Positions 6,992 to 21,280 of a stretch of DNA of 37,508 bases are shown one piece after another. Source of the DNA: Eubacteriales Family XIII. Incertae Sedis bacterium (GTDB lineage: Bacteria > Bacillota > Clostridia > Peptostreptococcales > Anaerovoracaceae). Positions within the stretch are counted from its first letter, which is position 1. Each line of letters opens with the position of its first letter. The notes below the pieces were generated by a model that had not been told where the DNA came from, ran no database searches, and was given only the letters and a program-made list of their open reading frames with translations. The DNA lies in contig JAIRPE010000071.1 in assembly GCA_031257175.1 (NCBI GenBank), forward strand, positions 1-37,508, written 5' to 3'. Position numbers and translations under genes: made by a program.

Positions 6992-9900
6992 ATGTCTAAA
7001 AGAAAGCTCTTGTCGGCTTTTGCCGTAGCGGCCATCTGCGGAGGGCTGTTGCCAGGGTTTCCTAGCCCCGTAACGACAGCGCTGGCTGCCGACGAACCGT
7101 TCATCCAGCCGAACAACCCTATCGTCAAGTCCATATTCACTGCGGATCCTGAGGCGCATTCCTGGCCAACCAATCCAAACAAACTGTATATCTACCCGTC
7201 CCACGACCCATATCCATACGCCGGTTGCAACAATATGGATATGTACCATGTGTATTCGACAGAAAATATGGTGGACTTTGTTGACGAGGGGGAGATCGCG
7301 CGCCGTTCCGATCTTAACGGCCTTTCTTGGATCACCCCGTCAACGAACGCCTCGAGCTTCATGTGGGCGCCCGACGCGGCCTACAGGGACGGCTGGTATT
7401 ATTTCTACTTTCCTGTCCCTCGCAACGTAGGCAGTTGGGGTTCAACATGGGAAACGGGCGTGCTGAGAAGCAGGTACCCCGACAGAGGCTTCGAGCAGAT
7501 CCCGGCGGACGCGGTGAACTCCAACCCTGGCAAACCTTGGCTAGGCTTTATAAGGGATTCAGGGGCGACCGACGGGTACAACAATATGTATGACGTCTGC
7601 GTCCGCGTATACGACGGGCAGGCGTACATTTACAACGGCGCCGCCCAAACCCTGTGGCAGGGCAAGCTCAAAGACGACATGGTGACTCTCGACGGCAAAC
7701 TGCAGCTCGTGTCCACGGATCAAACAAGCGTAGCCAACGCCAATGGCGATCCTGCCGCCTACAGAAGACTGACGAACTATCATGAAGGGCCGTCCTCTTT
7801 CAGAAGGAAAGGGCCCGACGGCAATTGGATTTACTATCTGATCTATCCGGGCGGCGCGGGCTCATACAACGGCCTCAGCGGCGACAGCTTTTATTATGCC
7901 AAGGCTGACAGCCCGTTGGGCCCCTGGGGCAATGCTCAGATTTTCTTTAACCCCACAGGCTGCGACACGTCTCACGGATCGATTTTCGAATTCAAGGGCA
8001 AATGGTATTGGGCGTACCATACCCGTGATCTTTCGGGTATCGGAGAGCAGAGATCCGTTTGCATAGACGAGGTTAAGTTCAACGAGGACGGCACCATCCA
8101 AAGATTCAGCAAGACTTTTGACAGCGTCCCTCAGGACGGCCCTGATTACGTGAGGCCCACAGGCGTTAATTTGAGCGCCGCGCAAGCCGTTCTCGGCGGA
8201 ACCGGCACACGTCCCGTTCTTAGCAACGACGCGGCGGCAGGGAACGACGGCGCCGTGCTCACCGGTTGCGGAGCTAACAACACCACCATCACCTTTAACA
8301 ACGTGGACGGCGGGACAGGCAACCGAGCGAGACTGGTGTTCCATTACTCGACGACCGCCGACGTGCCTAAACTTAATTTGTTCATAAACGGCATGGATTA
8401 CAAATCCGTCAATTTCCCGAAAACCGGCGGGGATTCGTTCTATTCGGAAGTTGAATTTTCCACCAGAAAACTCAACCCTGGCACGACGAACACCATCGAG
8501 CTGCGAGGGTACAACGTGGCCACCAGACTTAACCTCAATTATGTTGAGGTCATACTGTTTGACGACTCCACGCCGCCTCCGGGATACTTTGCATTGAATG
8601 TCACCCAGGCCACGGGCGGCACGGCTTCCGCCAAATGGAACTTGCAGGACGCGGGCGCGAGCCTGAGCGTGGCAGCCGGTTCGAAGGTGACTTTGTCTTA
8701 CGATGAAGGCACGGGTGAGTTCGACGGATGGGATGTAGTGAAGCCTGCAGGATTGGCTGTCACCGAAAACACCTTCTACATGCCCTACGGCGAGGTGGAG
8801 ATCAAGCCGATCTTCAACAATGAAGGCAACGCCCGCAGACCCATCATAACTGCGCAGCCCGAGGACGTCACGCTGATACAGGGGAATAACGCCCTGCTTT
8901 CAGCGGAGGCGATCATCAAAGACGCGGGAACCCTGAGCTACCAGTGGTACGTCAACACTACCGACTCAACCGTAGGCGGCTTGCCCGTCAGCGGCGCGAG
9001 CGGCGCGTCATACGCCCTGCCCACGGAAACCGTAGGCACTTTGTACTATTATGTCGTCATTACAAACACGAACGCGTCCGCCACGGGGCCCAACAAGACG
9101 GCGACAGCGACGAGCCGCGTCGCCGCCGTGAGGGTTGACGCGCCCCCCAGCAAGGAATGCGACCTGATCGGCGCGAACGCGCCGTTCAAGATCGTCGGTT
9201 CGGAAGTCACGGCGCTCGTGTCCAACCATACGACCAGCATAAACCTGACCGACGCGTTCCAAGTCAGCGACGCCGCGAAATGGGTTCTGTACAGCAACCC
9301 GGGATACACGACGGAAGTCTCGAAGGTCGTGAGCCCGTTGCTGTCCGGGGACAACGTCAGATACATCAGGGTCACTGCGGAAGACAACGTGACGACGAAG
9401 GACTACACCATAACCATCACCCGCAAAACCGACGTCATAGGAAGATTCAAGACTCCTCCCCCTCTGAACGGCACGCTTAACCCATCAGAATGGGGCGATA
9501 AAGTCTTTACCCTCGCCAATGGCGCGGAAGGCGTCGCTCTGACGCAATTCAACCCGACCGCAGGGTATCCTCCGGCCGACTTTTCAGCGGACGTTTATCT
9601 GGGTTATGACGCGAGCAACGTCTACCTAGGGTTGATTGTCAACGACCCTCTTTGGATAGCGGCACGATCCGGCTCTAATCTTTGGCAAGGTTGCGGCGTT
9701 CAGCTTAACCTTTGGAGCGGAAGGACAGGCGCCAGATCCGAATACGGCTTTGGCCTGACCGCCTCGGGCCCCGCCCACTGGCAATGGGCCAATGGCACAG
9801 GCACCACCAGTCTGCCGACCGGCTACAATAACTATGACATTAAGCGGATCGAGGGTACCGACACATTCATCTACACTATAGCCGTTCCGCTCAACTCATT

Positions 9901-10336
9901 CAGGCAGAACGCGGCAGCGAACCCGTTGTCCGAAGGCAGTGATCTGTGGTTCTCCATTTCCTACAACTATCCGAGCGCAAGCAATATGATATGCGCTTTT
10001 GACATGGGATTCCACAGCAAAAACTTGAACGACGCCCGTTCGCTCACACTGGGTTCCGCCATAGAGCCGAACTCCATACTGAATGCCTACGTCGTCGGCG
10101 GCGCTGTTGCCGACGTCACGGTACGCGCGGCTTCTCCCGATGATTCGCTTTTGTTGCTCGCCGCCTATGACAAAGCCGGCGCATTGATAAGCGCCAAGGC
10201 GTTTGAACCGACCCGCTCGGGCAAACAGGACATAAATGCCAACTTCGATTTCGGCGACGCCGCTACGATCAAAGCGTTCCTGTGGAATAAAAAAATGGCG
10301 CCCTTGACCGCAGCGAAAGAGATACGCGTCCCATAA
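6992..10336 (+). CDS. Secreted GH43-type glycoside hydrolase, multidomain
   Basis: A 1114-residue exported protein with a Sec signal peptide (cleavage near ALAAD, about residue 33). The catalytic five-bladed propeller (about 40-385) has the GH43 pattern: Asp base in TADPEA (D52), YPSHD, WAPDAAY, an Asp in MYDVCVRVYDG (D201) and the acid Glu in HEGPSS (E265). GH43 enzymes cleave arabinan or xylan side chains; the exact substrate is unclear. Then follow a CBM6/35-like sandwich (about 390-530), a bacterial-repeat domain (531-610), an Ig-like domain (615-715), a cadherin-like beta domain (723-812), a CBM9-like domain (815-1025) and a C-terminal domain with LLAAYDKAGAL that is also found at the end of the protein encoded at 14987-17638. 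G+C and codon use look lower than in the flanking genes, suggesting different ancestry. Confidence 0.85.
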   Translation: MSKRKLLSAFAVAAICGGLLPGFPSPVTTALAADEPFIQPNNPIVKSIFTADPEAHSWPTNPNKLYIYPSHDPYPYAGCNNMDMYHVYSTENMVDFVDEGEIARRSDLNGLSWITPSTNASSFMWAPDAAYRDGWYYFYFPVPRNVGSWGSTWETGVLRSRYPDRGFEQIPADAVNSNPGKPWLGFIRDSGATDGYNNMYDVCVRVYDGQAYIYNGAAQTLWQGKLKDDMVTLDGKLQLVSTDQTSVANANGDPAAYRRLTNYHEGPSSFRRKGPDGNWIYYLIYPGGAGSYNGLSGDSFYYAKADSPLGPWGNAQIFFNPTGCDTSHGSIFEFKGKWYWAYHTRDLSGIGEQRSVCIDEVKFNEDGTIQRFSKTFDSVPQDGPDYVRPTGVNLSAAQAVLGGTGTRPVLSNDAAAGNDGAVLTGCGANNTTITFNNVDGGTGNRARLVFHYSTTADVPKLNLFINGMDYKSVNFPKTGGDSFYSEVEFSTRKLNPGTTNTIELRGYNVATRLNLNYVEVILFDDSTPPPGYFALNVTQATGGTASAKWNLQDAGASLSVAAGSKVTLSYDEGTGEFDGWDVVKPAGLAVTENTFYMPYGEVEIKPIFNNEGNARRPIITAQPEDVTLIQGNNALLSAEAIIKDAGTLSYQWYVNTTDSTVGGLPVSGASGASYALPTETVGTLYYYVVITNTNASATGPNKTATATSRVAAVRVDAPPSKECDLIGANAPFKIVGSEVTALVSNHTTSINLTDAFQVSDAAKWVLYSNPGYTTEVSKVVSPLLSGDNVRYIRVTAEDNVTTKDYTITITRKTDVIGRFKTPPPLNGTLNPSEWGDKVFTLANGAEGVALTQFNPTAGYPPADFSADVYLGYDASNVYLGLIVNDPLWIAARSGSNLWQGCGVQLNLWSGRTGARSEYGFGLTASGPAHWQWANGTGTTSLPTGYNNYDIKRIEGTDTFIYTIAVPLNSFRQNAAANPLSEGSDLWFSISYNYPSASNMICAFDMGFHSKNLNDARSLTLGSAIEPNSILNAYVVGGAVADVTVRAASPDDSLLLLAAYDKAGALISAKAFEPTRSGKQDINANFDFGDAATIKAFLWNKKMAPLTAAKEIRVP

Positions 10337-10373
10337 AAGCCCAAGAGCCAAAAACGGGCGACATGAAACTACG

Positions 10374-10407
10374 AGGAGAGCCAGGCGACCTGGCTCTCCT
10401 TTGCTTC
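10374..10407 (+). terminator. Strong rho-independent terminator after the GH43 gene
   Basis: A perfect 12-bp stem (AGGAGAGCCAGG / CCTGGCTCTCCT, 10374-10385 and 10389-10400) with a 3-nt loop is followed by TTTGCTT. It separates the GH43 gene from the radical SAM gene. Confidence 0.85.
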
Positions 10408-10440
10408 GGCTAATGCGGCGGCACGACGTTGCTTACCGCT

Positions 10441-10517
10441 ATTGCTCCACCGACTAAATGTTGCGCTGAAACCGCTTCAGCGAGGATTTTTTCTGTCGGA
10501 CAAGGCGGCGGAGCAAT
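10441..10517. repeat. Element B, copy 1 (MITE-like)
   Basis: A 77-bp element with imperfect 12-bp terminal inverted repeats (ATTGCTCCACCG / CGGCGGAGCAAT). A 33-bp stretch at one end (10441-10473) recurs in inverted orientation at 20887-20919 with one mismatch, and a related full-length copy lies at 17729-17810. It has no coding capacity worth defending. Confidence 0.75.
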
Positions 10518-10535
10518 AAAATCAAAATTCTGCTG

Positions 10536-10582
10536 TTTCCGCGCGGAAAGCGCTTGGCGTCCGTCCCATATGGATATACAAT
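10536..10582 (+). promoter_or_regulatory. Palindrome and predicted promoter of the SCIFF maturase gene
   Basis: A perfect 14-bp palindrome TTTCCGCGCGGAAA (10536-10549) lies just upstream of TTGGCG (10554-10559), 17 bp, TACAAT (10577-10582). The core TTCCGCGCGG recurs downstream near 10597-10606. The pair of sites flanking the promoter could bind a regulator; this is inference. Confidence 0.5.
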
Positions 10583-10638
10583 ATAGTATGAGGCTGTTCC
10601 GCGCGGTTAGCGGGGCACACGCATGAAAGGCAGGTACT

Positions 10639-12048
10639 ATGATTCATTGTTACAGGTTCAAGGGGATAAACATAGTGTTGGACATAGACAGCGGCGCCGT
10701 ACACTTAGTAAGTGACGCTGTCTATGATATCTTGGAATCACGTGGCCGATACGCGTCAGACGCGGAATTCGCGGACGCGTTGGATTCTTTGCCGACAGGC
10801 ACGGGTTTCGGCCATTTGGAAAGCAGATATGGCAAGGAACTCCTGCAAGAAGCCGCATCTGAGATAAAGACGCTTATAACAGACGGAACCCTGTTCAGCG
10901 ACGACGCTCATGTCACGACGGGCATGTTAGGAAAAAGAGGGGCCGTGATCAAGGCTATGTGTCTGCACGCTGCGCATGACTGCAACATGTCGTGCGAGTA
11001 TTGCTTTGCCGGAAAGGGCTCCTTCACGGGCGAAAAATCTTTGCTCGACGTCGGTACGGGGAAAAGAGCGATTGACTTTTTGTTGCGCCACTCCAGTGGC
11101 AGGAAAAATCTTGAAGTGGATTTTTTTGGCGGAGAGCCATTAATGAATTTTGACACGATCAAAGCTATCGTCACATATGGGCGGGAAGAGGAACGGAAGC
11201 ACGGCAAGAACATCCGCTTTACTGTAACTACCAACGGCCTGTTGCTGGACGAGGCTAAGGAAGCGTTCATTAACGAAAACATGGACAACGTCATACTCAG
11301 CATTGACGGCAGGCCGGAGATCAACGACGCAGCCAGAAAAACCGTAGGAGGGCAAGGAACTTACGGCCACATAATCAAAAACTTCAACAGATTCAGAGAA
11401 CGACGCAAGGGCAACTATTTCCTGCGCGGCACGTTTACCAATAATAATTTGGATTTTTCCGATGACGTGAAGCATTTGGTTGACTTGGGATTTCATGCCG
11501 TGTCGGTGGAACCTGTCGTCGCCGATGAGACAAAGGCTTATGCATTGAAGCCCGATGACATCCCACGTATAAAGGATGAATATGACAGATTGGCGGATTT
11601 GTGCGTTAGCTATGCCGAAGCGGGCAAACCGTTCGTTTTTTTTCACTTCAACATCGATCTTGAACAAGGGCCTTGCGTAATAAAACGCGTTTCAGGCTGC
11701 GGCGCGGGCACGGAGTATGTGGCCGTCGCCCCCGACGGCGATATTTACCCCTGCCATCAGTTCGTGGGTGAGGAACAGTTCCGTTTAGGGAACGTCAACG
11801 ACGCTGTTTTCGAGAACCGTCTATATGACATGTTCAACGGCGCGCATATGATGAACAAACCCGAATGCGGGGCCTGTTGGGCAAAATATTATTGCGGCGG
11901 CGGCTGTCACGCCAACGCCTGGCACATTAACCAGGATATCCTGAAGCCCTACGCCCTAGGTTGCGAGATGGAGAGAAAACGCGTCGAGTGCGCTATAGGG
12001 ATTAAGGCCATGTTGTTTCTGCGTCGCAGCGGCGAGAACGGCTTATAA
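10639..12048 (+). CDS. scfB: SCIFF-type thioether-forming radical SAM peptide maturase
   Basis: A 469-residue radical SAM/SPASM protein. Residues 1-90 form the N-terminal peptide-recognition region (MIHCYRFKGINIVLDIDSG, RRE-like). The radical SAM cluster motif is in HDCNMSCEYCFAGKG near residue 115, followed by EVDFFGGEPLMNF. The C-terminal SPASM region has CGAGTEYVAVAPDGDIYPCHQF and CGACWAKYYCGGGC, giving auxiliary Fe-S ligands. This arrangement matches CteB/ScfB, which makes Cys-to-Thr thioether bridges in the SCIFF (six Cys in forty-five) peptide found across Clostridia. Normally a short scfA gene lies just upstream. I see none in 10337-10638 or 12049-12136 in any frame. Ribosome site AAAGGCAGG; a terminator follows. 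G+C looks lower than in neighbours. Confidence 0.92.
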   Translation: MIHCYRFKGINIVLDIDSGAVHLVSDAVYDILESRGRYASDAEFADALDSLPTGTGFGHLESRYGKELLQEAASEIKTLITDGTLFSDDAHVTTGMLGKRGAVIKAMCLHAAHDCNMSCEYCFAGKGSFTGEKSLLDVGTGKRAIDFLLRHSSGRKNLEVDFFGGEPLMNFDTIKAIVTYGREEERKHGKNIRFTVTTNGLLLDEAKEAFINENMDNVILSIDGRPEINDAARKTVGGQGTYGHIIKNFNRFRERRKGNYFLRGTFTNNNLDFSDDVKHLVDLGFHAVSVEPVVADETKAYALKPDDIPRIKDEYDRLADLCVSYAEAGKPFVFFHFNIDLEQGPCVIKRVSGCGAGTEYVAVAPDGDIYPCHQFVGEEQFRLGNVNDAVFENRLYDMFNGAHMMNKPECGACWAKYYCGGGCHANAWHINQDILKPYALGCEMERKRVECAIGIKAMLFLRRSGENGL

Positions 12049-12136: not shown

Positions 12137-14902
12137 TCAGCTAACAGTGACTGTTATCGCGCTGACCAATCCGCTCCCGTCCGTGCTTTTAAGTCCTATG
12201 ACGGCGTTCCCGAGCCTACGCGGGGTTATAACGCCGTCGCTCGTGATCGTAACCACGCCCTTGTTGCTGCTGTCAAGCGTGTAATATTCGCCATCCACGT
12301 TGAATTGCAACTGGTACGCCTCGCCCAAACGCAGATAAAGCCGCACAGGCGACACAATCCTCGCCTGGGACATAAGTATCCTCTCAGACGCCAAAGCCCC
12401 GCTCAGGGAAACGTGGTAGTAATCCCCCGCCACCCAGTCCGCCGGGGAGGCGAAGGTGAAGCTCAGGTTGCCGCTCGCGTCCGCGGAGGGCGTGGCGAAA
12501 ACGTCATACTCCGCGGCCGAAGGCGCCGCGCCGTAGCCCCCGTAAAGCTTAAACACCTGGTTCGGCGCGTAGCCTGATCCCGTCACCGCCACCGTCCGCG
12601 TGGCTTTGTCGGGCTTGATGCTGAAACCGGGCGTCCCCGTGGCGAAGGCCGCGTAGGCGTTCTCCACCGCCTCGTCGGTGAGCGCCCTGACCCTCGCGGC
12701 GTACTCCTCCTCCAAGAGCAGGTATTCCTCCGAAGGGGCGTTCAAAAGCGCCACGTTCGGCGTGTTGGCGGGGGTGGAGTTCGGGTAGCTCAGGGGGTAG
12801 GAGCTTAAAGACTTCACCGCCTGCTCGTACCAGGCGCCCCACTCCCTCAGCACCCGCAGCTCGTTCGTCAGCTCCGTCGCCAGGCTCTTGCCGTTGGCGT
12901 CGGCGTAAATCCTGTGGTGCGCCGTGTTCTCCCGCTCCAGGGCGAAGCGCGCCTCGGCCGCCCTGTAGACCACGTCCATCAGCGACGCGCCGTTGTCGGG
13001 CTTCTCGTCCGTGACGTTGGCCGCCGTGTAGGCGGTGGCGAAGGTGACGATGTCCACGTTCCTCATCTCCCTGGCGCTGGCCATGGCCAACGTGTCCACG
13101 GAGGAATGGTAGGTGTAGTCCGTGAAATGCCACGTCAGGAGCGCGGGTATCTTGTAGCCCAGGAAGGTCGAGTGGTCGCTGCCTCCCTCATAGGGGCAGA
13201 CCTCCACGCGGAAGCCGTCGTCAACGGAGTCGATGACTTCCTGCGTCACCGCCATGTACAGGTCGTTCAGGAAATGCCCCGTCCTGAAATAATTCTGGCT
13301 GACGGCACCTGATGAGCCCCACAGCGTGTCAGAGTCGGGCAGCCTCACGAAGGAGCCGGAGGCGTTCTTGTACGTGCTGTCATAATACGGGGCCTGTCCG
13401 GGCAGCCTGTCCAGGGTATAGCCGTTGGCCACGGAGGGGTCGGGCGTCTTTTCTATGCGCATGACGCCGCCCGTTTTGGACGGATCTTCGCCCACCATGT
13501 CCATGTCCAGCGCCAGCTTCAGCTTCTTTATCTCCGTGCCGTGGAACTTGTTCCATACCGTGCCCATGTTCATCTCGTCCCCCCAGAGGAAGGTGATGGT
13601 GCGCTCGGGCCTGGCTATCTTGCCCTCGTCGATCATCTTCTTCACGCGGACGGCCATCTCCAGCATGGCGGCCACCCCCGTGGCGTTGTCGTTGCAGCCC
13701 GGCTCCTGCACGTGGGCGCAAATCAGTATCCTCTCGTCAGGCTTGGACGCGCCCTTGATTTCGGCGATTCCCACCGCCTGGCCCTTGCCGCCCTGCGCCG
13801 CGTCGTTCATGGGGTAAATCCGCCCCACGCTGACGCTTTTCACCAGGACGGGCGTCTCGGCGCCGTTTATCAGCTCTATGAGCGCGGCTTTCTGGTTCCT
13901 GGAAAGCTGCCACTCCACGATAGGCTTGCCCGCCGTCATGGCCGCCAACGCCCTGTTCGTGCCCGTGCCGCTGGCGTATCTGGCGGAATCCATGAACTGC
14001 ATCTCCCCGTCGATGACCGGGGTATTGTAGTCATTGAGGGAATTGGCGGACATAACCGCCACCGCGCCCACCTTTTGGGCGTAGGTGAAGGTGGAGCTGA
14101 GGCTGGAGTCCGACACCAGCACGCCGCCCGCCAATTGGGCCTCATCCGCCGCCGTGGGGTAGCGGCTGCTGCGCTGGTTAGGCGACGACCCCGAGATAGT
14201 CCCAACGTAGAAAGCCCTTCCCGTCAGCCCCTGGGCGTCCTGGGGCTTAGTCCCCGCCGGGTCGGTGAAGCAAGTCTGCCAGGCCAGATGCGTGCGCTTG
14301 CCCAGCTTGGCCTCCTCGCCGTTCAGGACGTTTATCCTGTTTCCGTTCTCATCCTTTTTTGTTATCCAGGCCCACATGTCGTCAATGCTCTTGACGCCGT
14401 AGAGGTTGTCGTAGTAGTCGATGTAGGTTTCGGTAGTGGGGTTGAAGGAGGCGGTCTCCACGTTTATTTTCCCCACCAGCGCCTCCGAGCCGGCGGGAGC
14501 CTGGACGACCTCCAGCTTCGCGTATTCCGGCGCCCAGACATTGCTGGACACGGACGTGTCGTACATCGTCCACGCGTAGTCGCCGTCGGCGCTGCCGCTG
14601 GCGTCGGTAGTCCCGGCGTCTTTATACCCCGCGGACAGCAGCTGCCGATGGACGAAATCTTCGATAATGCGGTTCTGCCACGTGCCTCCCGTGGTTCTCC
14701 AGCCCATGAACACGAAGGACAGGTAATCGAAGGCGTTCTCGCCGTCGATGTTCTCTCCCAGGGCTTTGACCGCCTGGCTTATGGGCGCGGAAACGCCGCT
14801 CCCCGCCGAACCCCCGCCGCCCTCCTGGGCGAAGGAGCCTATGCCCCCGCCCGCGGTCAGGGCGACGCAAAGCAAAACTGCGGTAATTTTTCTCTTTAAC
14901 AT
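12137..14902 (-). CDS. Secreted M28-family metallopeptidase with C-terminal Ig-like domains
   Basis: A 921-residue exported protein with a Sec signal peptide (residues 1-26, cleavage after SFA). A long N-terminal part (about 45-390, including a PA-like insert) leads into the M28 zinc peptidase core: H397 and D405 in AHVQEPGCNDNATG, E443 in FLWGDEMNMG, an Asp near 467 in LDMDMVGED, and H577 in GGSDHSTF. The position before E443, usually Glu as general base, is Asp here. After a helical region come an Ig-like domain (about 765-850) and a Big_2-like domain (about 855-920). It likely removes N-terminal amino acids from peptides outside the cell. It lies 84 bp after the C39-like gene on the same strand with a good ribosome site (AAGGAGGG). 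The last stretch of the gene looks lower in G+C than the rest. Confidence 0.87.
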   Translation of the reverse strand: MLKRKITAVLLCVALTAGGGIGSFAQEGGGGSAGSGVSAPISQAVKALGENIDGENAFDYLSFVFMGWRTTGGTWQNRIIEDFVHRQLLSAGYKDAGTTDASGSADGDYAWTMYDTSVSSNVWAPEYAKLEVVQAPAGSEALVGKINVETASFNPTTETYIDYYDNLYGVKSIDDMWAWITKKDENGNRINVLNGEEAKLGKRTHLAWQTCFTDPAGTKPQDAQGLTGRAFYVGTISGSSPNQRSSRYPTAADEAQLAGGVLVSDSSLSSTFTYAQKVGAVAVMSANSLNDYNTPVIDGEMQFMDSARYASGTGTNRALAAMTAGKPIVEWQLSRNQKAALIELINGAETPVLVKSVSVGRIYPMNDAAQGGKGQAVGIAEIKGASKPDERILICAHVQEPGCNDNATGVAAMLEMAVRVKKMIDEGKIARPERTITFLWGDEMNMGTVWNKFHGTEIKKLKLALDMDMVGEDPSKTGGVMRIEKTPDPSVANGYTLDRLPGQAPYYDSTYKNASGSFVRLPDSDTLWGSSGAVSQNYFRTGHFLNDLYMAVTQEVIDSVDDGFRVEVCPYEGGSDHSTFLGYKIPALLTWHFTDYTYHSSVDTLAMASAREMRNVDIVTFATAYTAANVTDEKPDNGASLMDVVYRAAEARFALERENTAHHRIYADANGKSLATELTNELRVLREWGAWYEQAVKSLSSYPLSYPNSTPANTPNVALLNAPSEEYLLLEEEYAARVRALTDEAVENAYAAFATGTPGFSIKPDKATRTVAVTGSGYAPNQVFKLYGGYGAAPSAAEYDVFATPSADASGNLSFTFASPADWVAGDYYHVSLSGALASERILMSQARIVSPVRLYLRLGEAYQLQFNVDGEYYTLDSSNKGVVTITSDGVITPRRLGNAVIGLKSTDGSGLVSAITVTVS

Positions 14903-17728: not shown

Positions 17729-17810
17729 ATTGCCCCGCCGACTGAACATTGCGCGTTCGCCGGTCTTTTTTTCGCCGCGCTTCAGCGCAACATCTAGTCG
17801 TTGGAGCAAT
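17729..17810. repeat. Element B, copy 2 (MITE-like)
   Basis: An 82-bp element with terminal inverted repeats of 15 bp (ATTGCCCCGCCGACT / AGTCGTTGGAGCAAT, three mismatches). The interior carries TTCAGCGCAACAT, shared with the copies at 10441 and 20887. It abuts element A copy 1, sharing AAT. Confidence 0.75.
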
Positions 17811-17946
17811 ACTCATCCTCTTTTAATTTCCGCCCAAAATTATTGGGCAGGCGTCGGAGGACAGCATCTACTGTTCCGCTTCAAAGCAGCATTTTAAACG
17901 CGGATTGGTATTAAGTGCGGACTGGCTTTAAATGCGGATTAGTATT
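17809..17946 (-). repeat. Element A, copy 1 (two-hairpin repeat), sense to the C39-like gene
   Basis: On the minus strand it has the element A plan: an arm pair around AATCCGC ... GCGGA-like, then a stem CTGCCCAAT / TTGGGCGG, then an A-rich tail and GGATGAGTAT. It is more divergent than the other copies and has an extra left arm (AATACTAATCCGC, near 17934-17946). It lies between the predicted C39-like promoter and the gene, so it should be transcribed in the leader. Confidence 0.75.
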
Positions 17947-20870: not shown

Positions 20871-21280
20871 GCGCGGTTGGTGGCGTGGTTTCAGCGCGAC
20901 ATTTAGTCGGTGGAGCAATAGCTAATCTCAGGTCGGGAGAAACCCGTTAAAACCGCTGGAAGGGGGGCCGCGCGTTTTAACGGGGTCGCCAGGCGGCTCG
21001 GCGGGTCGGCGAGTCGGGTTAGCTATTGCTAACCGATCTTTAAAAAAAATACCTTCCTGCCGAACGCCCCGCCTGCGGGTTCCGCAGACGCGACCTGAGT
21101 TAACTTTTACTATTATAACCCATGGCAACGGGAAAAGCAATGGGCGCCTCTTAAAATTCCGAGGCTCGGGAAGATTTTCGAGGCGGGCGCCCATGCCCGC
21201 CACTGAATATAGCGCCCGTTTGCGGCGCGGGCCCCGCGACGGTCGCGGATGTGGGGATGGATCGCGGCGAGCCCTTCCCG
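20871..21280. other. 410-bp convergent intergenic region, gene-free
   Basis: No credible gene is seen. It holds a 33-bp element B fragment (20887-20919), nested inverted repeats (20914-21030) and a further 9-bp inverted pair CTCAGGTCG / CGACCTGAG (near 20927 and 21092). Nothing else is recognised in the remaining 180 bp. Confidence 0.7.
20887..21030. repeat. Element B, partial copy 3, with nested inverted repeats
   Basis: 20887-20919 matches the reverse complement of 10441-10473 at 32 of 33 positions. The end of this segment (AGCAATAGCTAA, 20914-20925) is exactly complementary to 21019-21030. Inside lies an 11-bp perfect pair (CCCGTTAAAAC at 20943-20953 and its complement at 20974-20984). 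The whole 144 bp folds as nested hairpins and may be a composite or rearranged element. Confidence 0.7.

Follow-up and report, generated by a model that had tools for sequence, protein, structure and literature searches.

A SCIFF maturase gene parted from its precursor gene in a Family XIII genome, one of the recurrent scfA-scfB splits of Clostridia

The SCIFF systems are a known RiPP pair in which a six-cysteine precursor peptide, ScfA, is matured by a radical SAM/SPASM enzyme, ScfB, and among those described are CteA/CteB of Clostridium thermocellum and Tte1186a of Caldanaerobacter subterraneus. In the SCIFF thioether the fourth Cys is reported as the donor, with acceptor Thr positions two and five residues later (PMC8326336), unlike the link made by PapB, which is reported to join Cys to Asp/Glu (PMC9413430). 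The window discussed here, meaning the whole stretch of 37,508 nucleotides that was analysed, carries an scfB with no scfA beside it, and the original prediction offered two readings: either scfA was displaced by a rearrangement, or the enzyme has taken on another substrate. I put a probability of roughly 0.85 on this being an ordinary scfB whose partner scfA lies elsewhere in the genome, on contig C106, an ancestral adjacent pair having been broken by rearrangement and now acting in trans. The features on which the discussion turns are these:

6992 to 10336, + strand: upstream neighbour, a secreted GH43-domain protein (Pfam PF04616; context only)
10373 to 10400, + strand: palindrome 3' of the GH43 gene, a probable terminator hairpin with few T behind it (-27.8 kcal/mol, z = -4.42)
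10440 to 10516, no strand: MITE-like repeat with inverted ends TATTGCTCC...GGAGCAATA, ~120 bp ahead of scfB (dozens of genome copies)
10554 to 10582, + strand: predicted sigma-70-like promoter TTGGCG-17-TACAAT just 5' of scfB (consensus match only; 1 found, shuffles mean 0.3)
10639 to 12048, + strand: scfB, SCIFF thioether maturase (radical SAM/SPASM), 469 aa (TIGR03974 at 618 bits and full-length alignment with CteB 5WGG)
12137 to 14902, - strand: downstream neighbour, a secreted M28 peptidase (Pfam PF04389; context only)

The best NCBIfam match of the window ScfB is TIGR03974, the SCIFF maturase equivalog, full-length (residues 2-457 on profile positions 1-450 of 451) and above its curated cut-off of 425 bits, and the closest solved structure found with phmmer is CteB 5WGG, aligned over residues 1-458 (E 3.4e-152). 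The radical SAM CxxxCxxC motif reads CNMSCEYC (C115/C119/C122) and the C-terminal, auxiliary-cluster cysteines align with those of 5WGG; the original claim of a CteB/ScfB over the whole length was right, coordinates included. The window gene is the sole TIGR03974 match in this incomplete draft MAG (138 contigs, 88% complete); a second scfB copy with scfA beside it, as the original prediction had envisaged, was looked for, and only the one was found. The surroundings were also correctly described, since the gap upstream of scfB (10340-10638) does contain a strong palindrome and a MITE-like repeat, and the neighbours are indeed secreted hydrolases, namely the GH43 protein and M28/C39-like peptidases. 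A six-frame regular expression, a home-made scfA HMM and TIGR03973 all came back empty in the window, in agreement with the predicted lack of a short Cys-rich, SCIFF-like peptide by scfB, and TIGR03973 finds no SCIFF precursor anywhere on the window contig, its sole genome match being on another. The MITE-like element of ~75 bp is matched at ~40 other places in the genome, in many of them with a 3' part that differs and is longer, and partial copies stand near 17781-17811 and 20887-20922 of the window. With dozens of copies in the genome, the repeat does not point specifically to a break; it was considered as the cause of the split and rejected, none of the copies being at scfA.

The search of the whole draft genome with TIGR03973, which the original prediction had proposed, returns a single match over the cut-off of 50 bits, an intact scfA at C106:12912-13037 (74.6 bits). 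The gene spans ~12909-13052 and encodes a SCIFF peptide of 48 residues, MKHVKTIAKPVLKDTKGKGCGECQTSCQSACKTSCTVANQECESIKRR, which has kept all six Cys and the CQSACKTSCT core, retains the fourth Cys together with both acceptor Thr positions, and has its leader motif, TIAKP, in common with L086, L087 and G024. It stands 72 bases from the end of C106 (13,109 bases), with a flavodoxin-like gene and a TerC gene nearby; a sigma-70-like site upstream, TTGCCA-17-TATAAT, is a consensus match only, and the hairpin 3' of scfA is no stronger than shuffles (z = -0.92). In tetranucleotide composition C106 correlates with the window at r = 0.93, compared with 0.88-0.90 for 13-kb window pieces among themselves and 0.78 at most for the other genomes compared, and copies of the ~75-bp repeat occur on both contigs and are absent from every tested locus of other genomes.

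Variant SCIFF peptides were also seen. Those of L034, L053, L058 and L151 (in G016, G032, G025 and G036), with the sequence CGECQTSCQSASKTSCS-ANQ-CEQ, have Ser in place of the fourth Cys, the reported donor, and Ser for the later Thr; the scfB that they adjoin is high-scoring in L034, L053 and L058 and truncated at the end of the contig in G036, and such peptides are a natural test of which Cys gets modified. A degenerate SCIFF, CGECQVSCQSAVKTSSAVANQKCEN, has lost two Cys at L118:2476-2652, directly ahead of a TIGR03974 maturase of 637 bits, and G130:C161:6831-7082 holds two SCIFF matches within one frame.

The two closest ScfB in the named genome collection, 63% identical, belong to Clostridiales Family XIII MAGs (JAITPU010000001, L086; JAISED010000028, L087), and since both have scfA directly upstream of scfB, the pair was split in the window lineage. 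The tree places the window ScfB beside L087 (support 91/67) in a well supported set of five rows with L086, G006 and G024 (98/92), the sister pairs within it being only weakly supported; G006 is a linked pair and G024 a split one, so the window split and that of G024 are most simply separate events. The suggested comparison of synteny bore out the linked pair in L086 and L087 and failed for the flanking genes: neither the window nor C106 has anything adjacent in common with the relatives' scfAB loci except scfA/scfB, which puts the history of the break beyond reconstruction. With an intact scfA on C106 and the nearest relatives keeping the pair together, displacement of scfA by a rearrangement is the supported half of the original alternative. 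An adjacent scfA-scfB pair, as in these relatives, would thus be the ancestral state and would have been broken in the window lineage; ScfB would now be made from its own transcription unit, the two genes probably having independent promoters, and would most likely meet the 48-residue peptide in trans, its N-terminal domain being predicted to bind the ScfA leader and its radical SAM and auxiliary 4Fe-4S clusters presumably installing the Cys-to-Thr (ranthipeptide) thioether.

How unusual would such a split be? The original prediction had scfA nearly always preceding scfB in Clostridia, which is overstated. Both genes were found, at the thresholds used, in 48 of 61 genomes of the family and order, and by coordinates 43 of these pairs are adjacent and 5 apart (G000, G024, G039, G050 and G056); in G036, tallied as lacking scfB, an scfB fragment cut by the contig end adjoins scfA. 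A class-wide sample of 146 genomes has scfA in 130 and scfB in 128, and scfA is present in every one of the 128 scfB genomes, with 107 pairs adjacent (distance from model end to model end: median 103, maximum 386 bp; a linked gap of ~460 bp occurs in G060) and 21 (about 16%) not, these 21 including the window genome itself, which was not randomly drawn. A retained trans pair predicts scfA in every scfB genome, and 128/128 despite 21 non-adjacent pairs fits. To have scfA directly upstream is usual, not defining, and the window genome lacks this arrangement. Contig ends explain one of the 21 cases (G114); the cases fall in ten sample families (f1, f4, f13, f19, f26, f27, f33, f43, f47 and f51), of which f43 is the contig-end case and to which G056 adds f10, their independence being judged on a tree within the order only. 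The two genes are 84 kb apart on a single contig in G039, 61 kb in G188 and 674 kb in G144, one genus having them 61-84 kb apart in this manner, and in G024 and G056 both genes of the split pair lie deep inside contigs. The window case is a fresh example of a known RiPP pair coming apart, a recurrent and largely ordinary event; a lone scfB is no evidence for a new substrate, and proximity-based genome mining, for which within 500 bp is an example threshold (PMC5300114), would overlook roughly one SCIFF pair in six among the genomes sampled.

Several further loci deserve mention. Maturases from Lachnospiraceae, Oscillospiraceae, Mahella and others that pass the TIGR03974 cut-off and form a supported group (L123, L124, L126-L133 and L136) have no SCIFF in the flanks examined, with scfA elsewhere or another substrate; G083:C11:55149-56474 is a second, unlinked scfB in addition to a linked pair; scfA stands at G134:C17 (L230) and G075:C178 (L231) with scfB not detected, that of G075 in the usual Sec locus described below; and the scfB of G189 and of G030 each have one in-frame stop (TAA and TAG, respectively).

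An assembly or binning artefact would mean that scfA and scfB are truly adjacent and only look apart, through a misjoin at the repeat or through a foreign contig, and the genome is indeed a draft MAG with scfA at a contig end and a many-copy repeat 120 bp upstream of scfB; a misjoin at that repeat is conceivable because linked genes can be up to 386 bp apart in the class sample and ~460 bp in G060. I nevertheless consider an artefact unlikely, given that the bases after scfA up to the end of C106 contain no copy of the ~75-bp repeat, where a graph break should have left part of it, that a genome-specific repeat and the tetranucleotide signature are common to both contigs, and that the relatives G024 and G056 are split deep inside contigs and G039, G188 and G144 on single ones.

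It is more improbable still that the window enzyme has switched substrate, off SCIFF, while a second, unseen scfB serves scfA. Only one scfB is found, its score is 618 bits with TIGR03974 and 506 with NF040492 (cut-off 855), the tree puts it among linked ScfB of the same family, the window holds no other SCIFF-pattern peptide, and the class-wide co-occurrence favours a trans pair, all of which weighs more than the distant precursor, the adjoining secreted hydrolases and the thought that a second scfB could be missing at 88% completeness or could lie past the end of C106, the draft being incomplete and scfA so near the contig end. The other-substrate half of the original alternative finds no support, the canonical substrate being there, the enzyme scoring at equivalog level and no other Cys-rich peptide of SCIFF type being near. 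That scfB was acquired horizontally from another clade, and independently of scfA, I find scarcely credible: the genes flanking scfB are not in common with the relatives' scfAB loci, as transfer would allow, but the tree already disfavours it by nesting ScfB beside L087 within the Family XIII group, and ScfA has the same TIAKP leader motif as L086, L087 and G024.

The rearranged pair of the window genome can also be set against the locus in which the two genes usually stand within the taxonomic order, which runs ruvA-ruvB-queA-tgt-yajC-scfA-scfB-(gamma carbonic anhydrase)-secD-secF-recJ-relA, secF being taken from a doubled secD/secF cluster. In G061 (L203), G101 (L211), G115 (L215), G144 (L219) and G155 (L221) scfB is elsewhere and the lone scfA, flanked by yajC and secD, stays in the ruvAB-queA-tgt-Sec-recJ-relA locus, with partial versions in G067, G074, G081, G107 and G162. 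In G039 and G188 scfA remains with ruvAB-queA-tgt-yajC, and since in G039 scfB remains with recJ-relA, 84 kb off in the same orientation, the locus itself was there cut between scfA and scfB; in the window lineage both genes are outside it. In families f1 and f10 an Orn/Lys/Arg decarboxylase gene recurs beside scfAB or a lone scfA (L143, L149, L168, L170, L175, L187 and L199), and a preference of lone scfB for the mreB neighbourhood (G024, G056) was dropped, there being two cases only. The strict co-retention of split pairs, among which scfA often keeps its place in the Sec locus, supports a conserved core SCIFF function in Clostridia, and the split pairs themselves are natural cases for testing trans maturation. 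It is a doubtful idea that SCIFF is under selection within a housekeeping Sec/tRNA-modification locus rather than a biosynthetic operon, scfA being locked beside yajC/secDF and scfB repeatedly free to move; if true, one might speculate that the core SCIFF role is tied to the export of proteins or to the cell envelope, not to an accessory metabolite. Among the best-ranked literature results from a partial library, no description of SCIFF together with secD or yajC was found.

Where, then, does this pair stand among known systems? The ScfB-related orphan maturase NF040492 ('not_ScfB') is a related radical SAM/SPASM sequence, and was rejected as the identity of the window ScfB on score, 505.6 bits being far under the cut-off of 855 and TIGR03974 scoring higher. 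The PapB-type ranthipeptide maturase (NF047865) is likewise a radical SAM/SPASM thioether maturase, to which the window ScfB scores 277 bits, below the cut-off of 340. With the scfA/scfB systems of Clostridium thermocellum and Caldanaerobacter subterraneus the window ScfB has its maturase family in common over the full length, and the scfA of the genome belongs to the same six-Cys precursor family as theirs; the difference is one of arrangement, the genes of the CteA/CteB-type systems being side by side and the precursor and maturase of the window genome being on different contigs.
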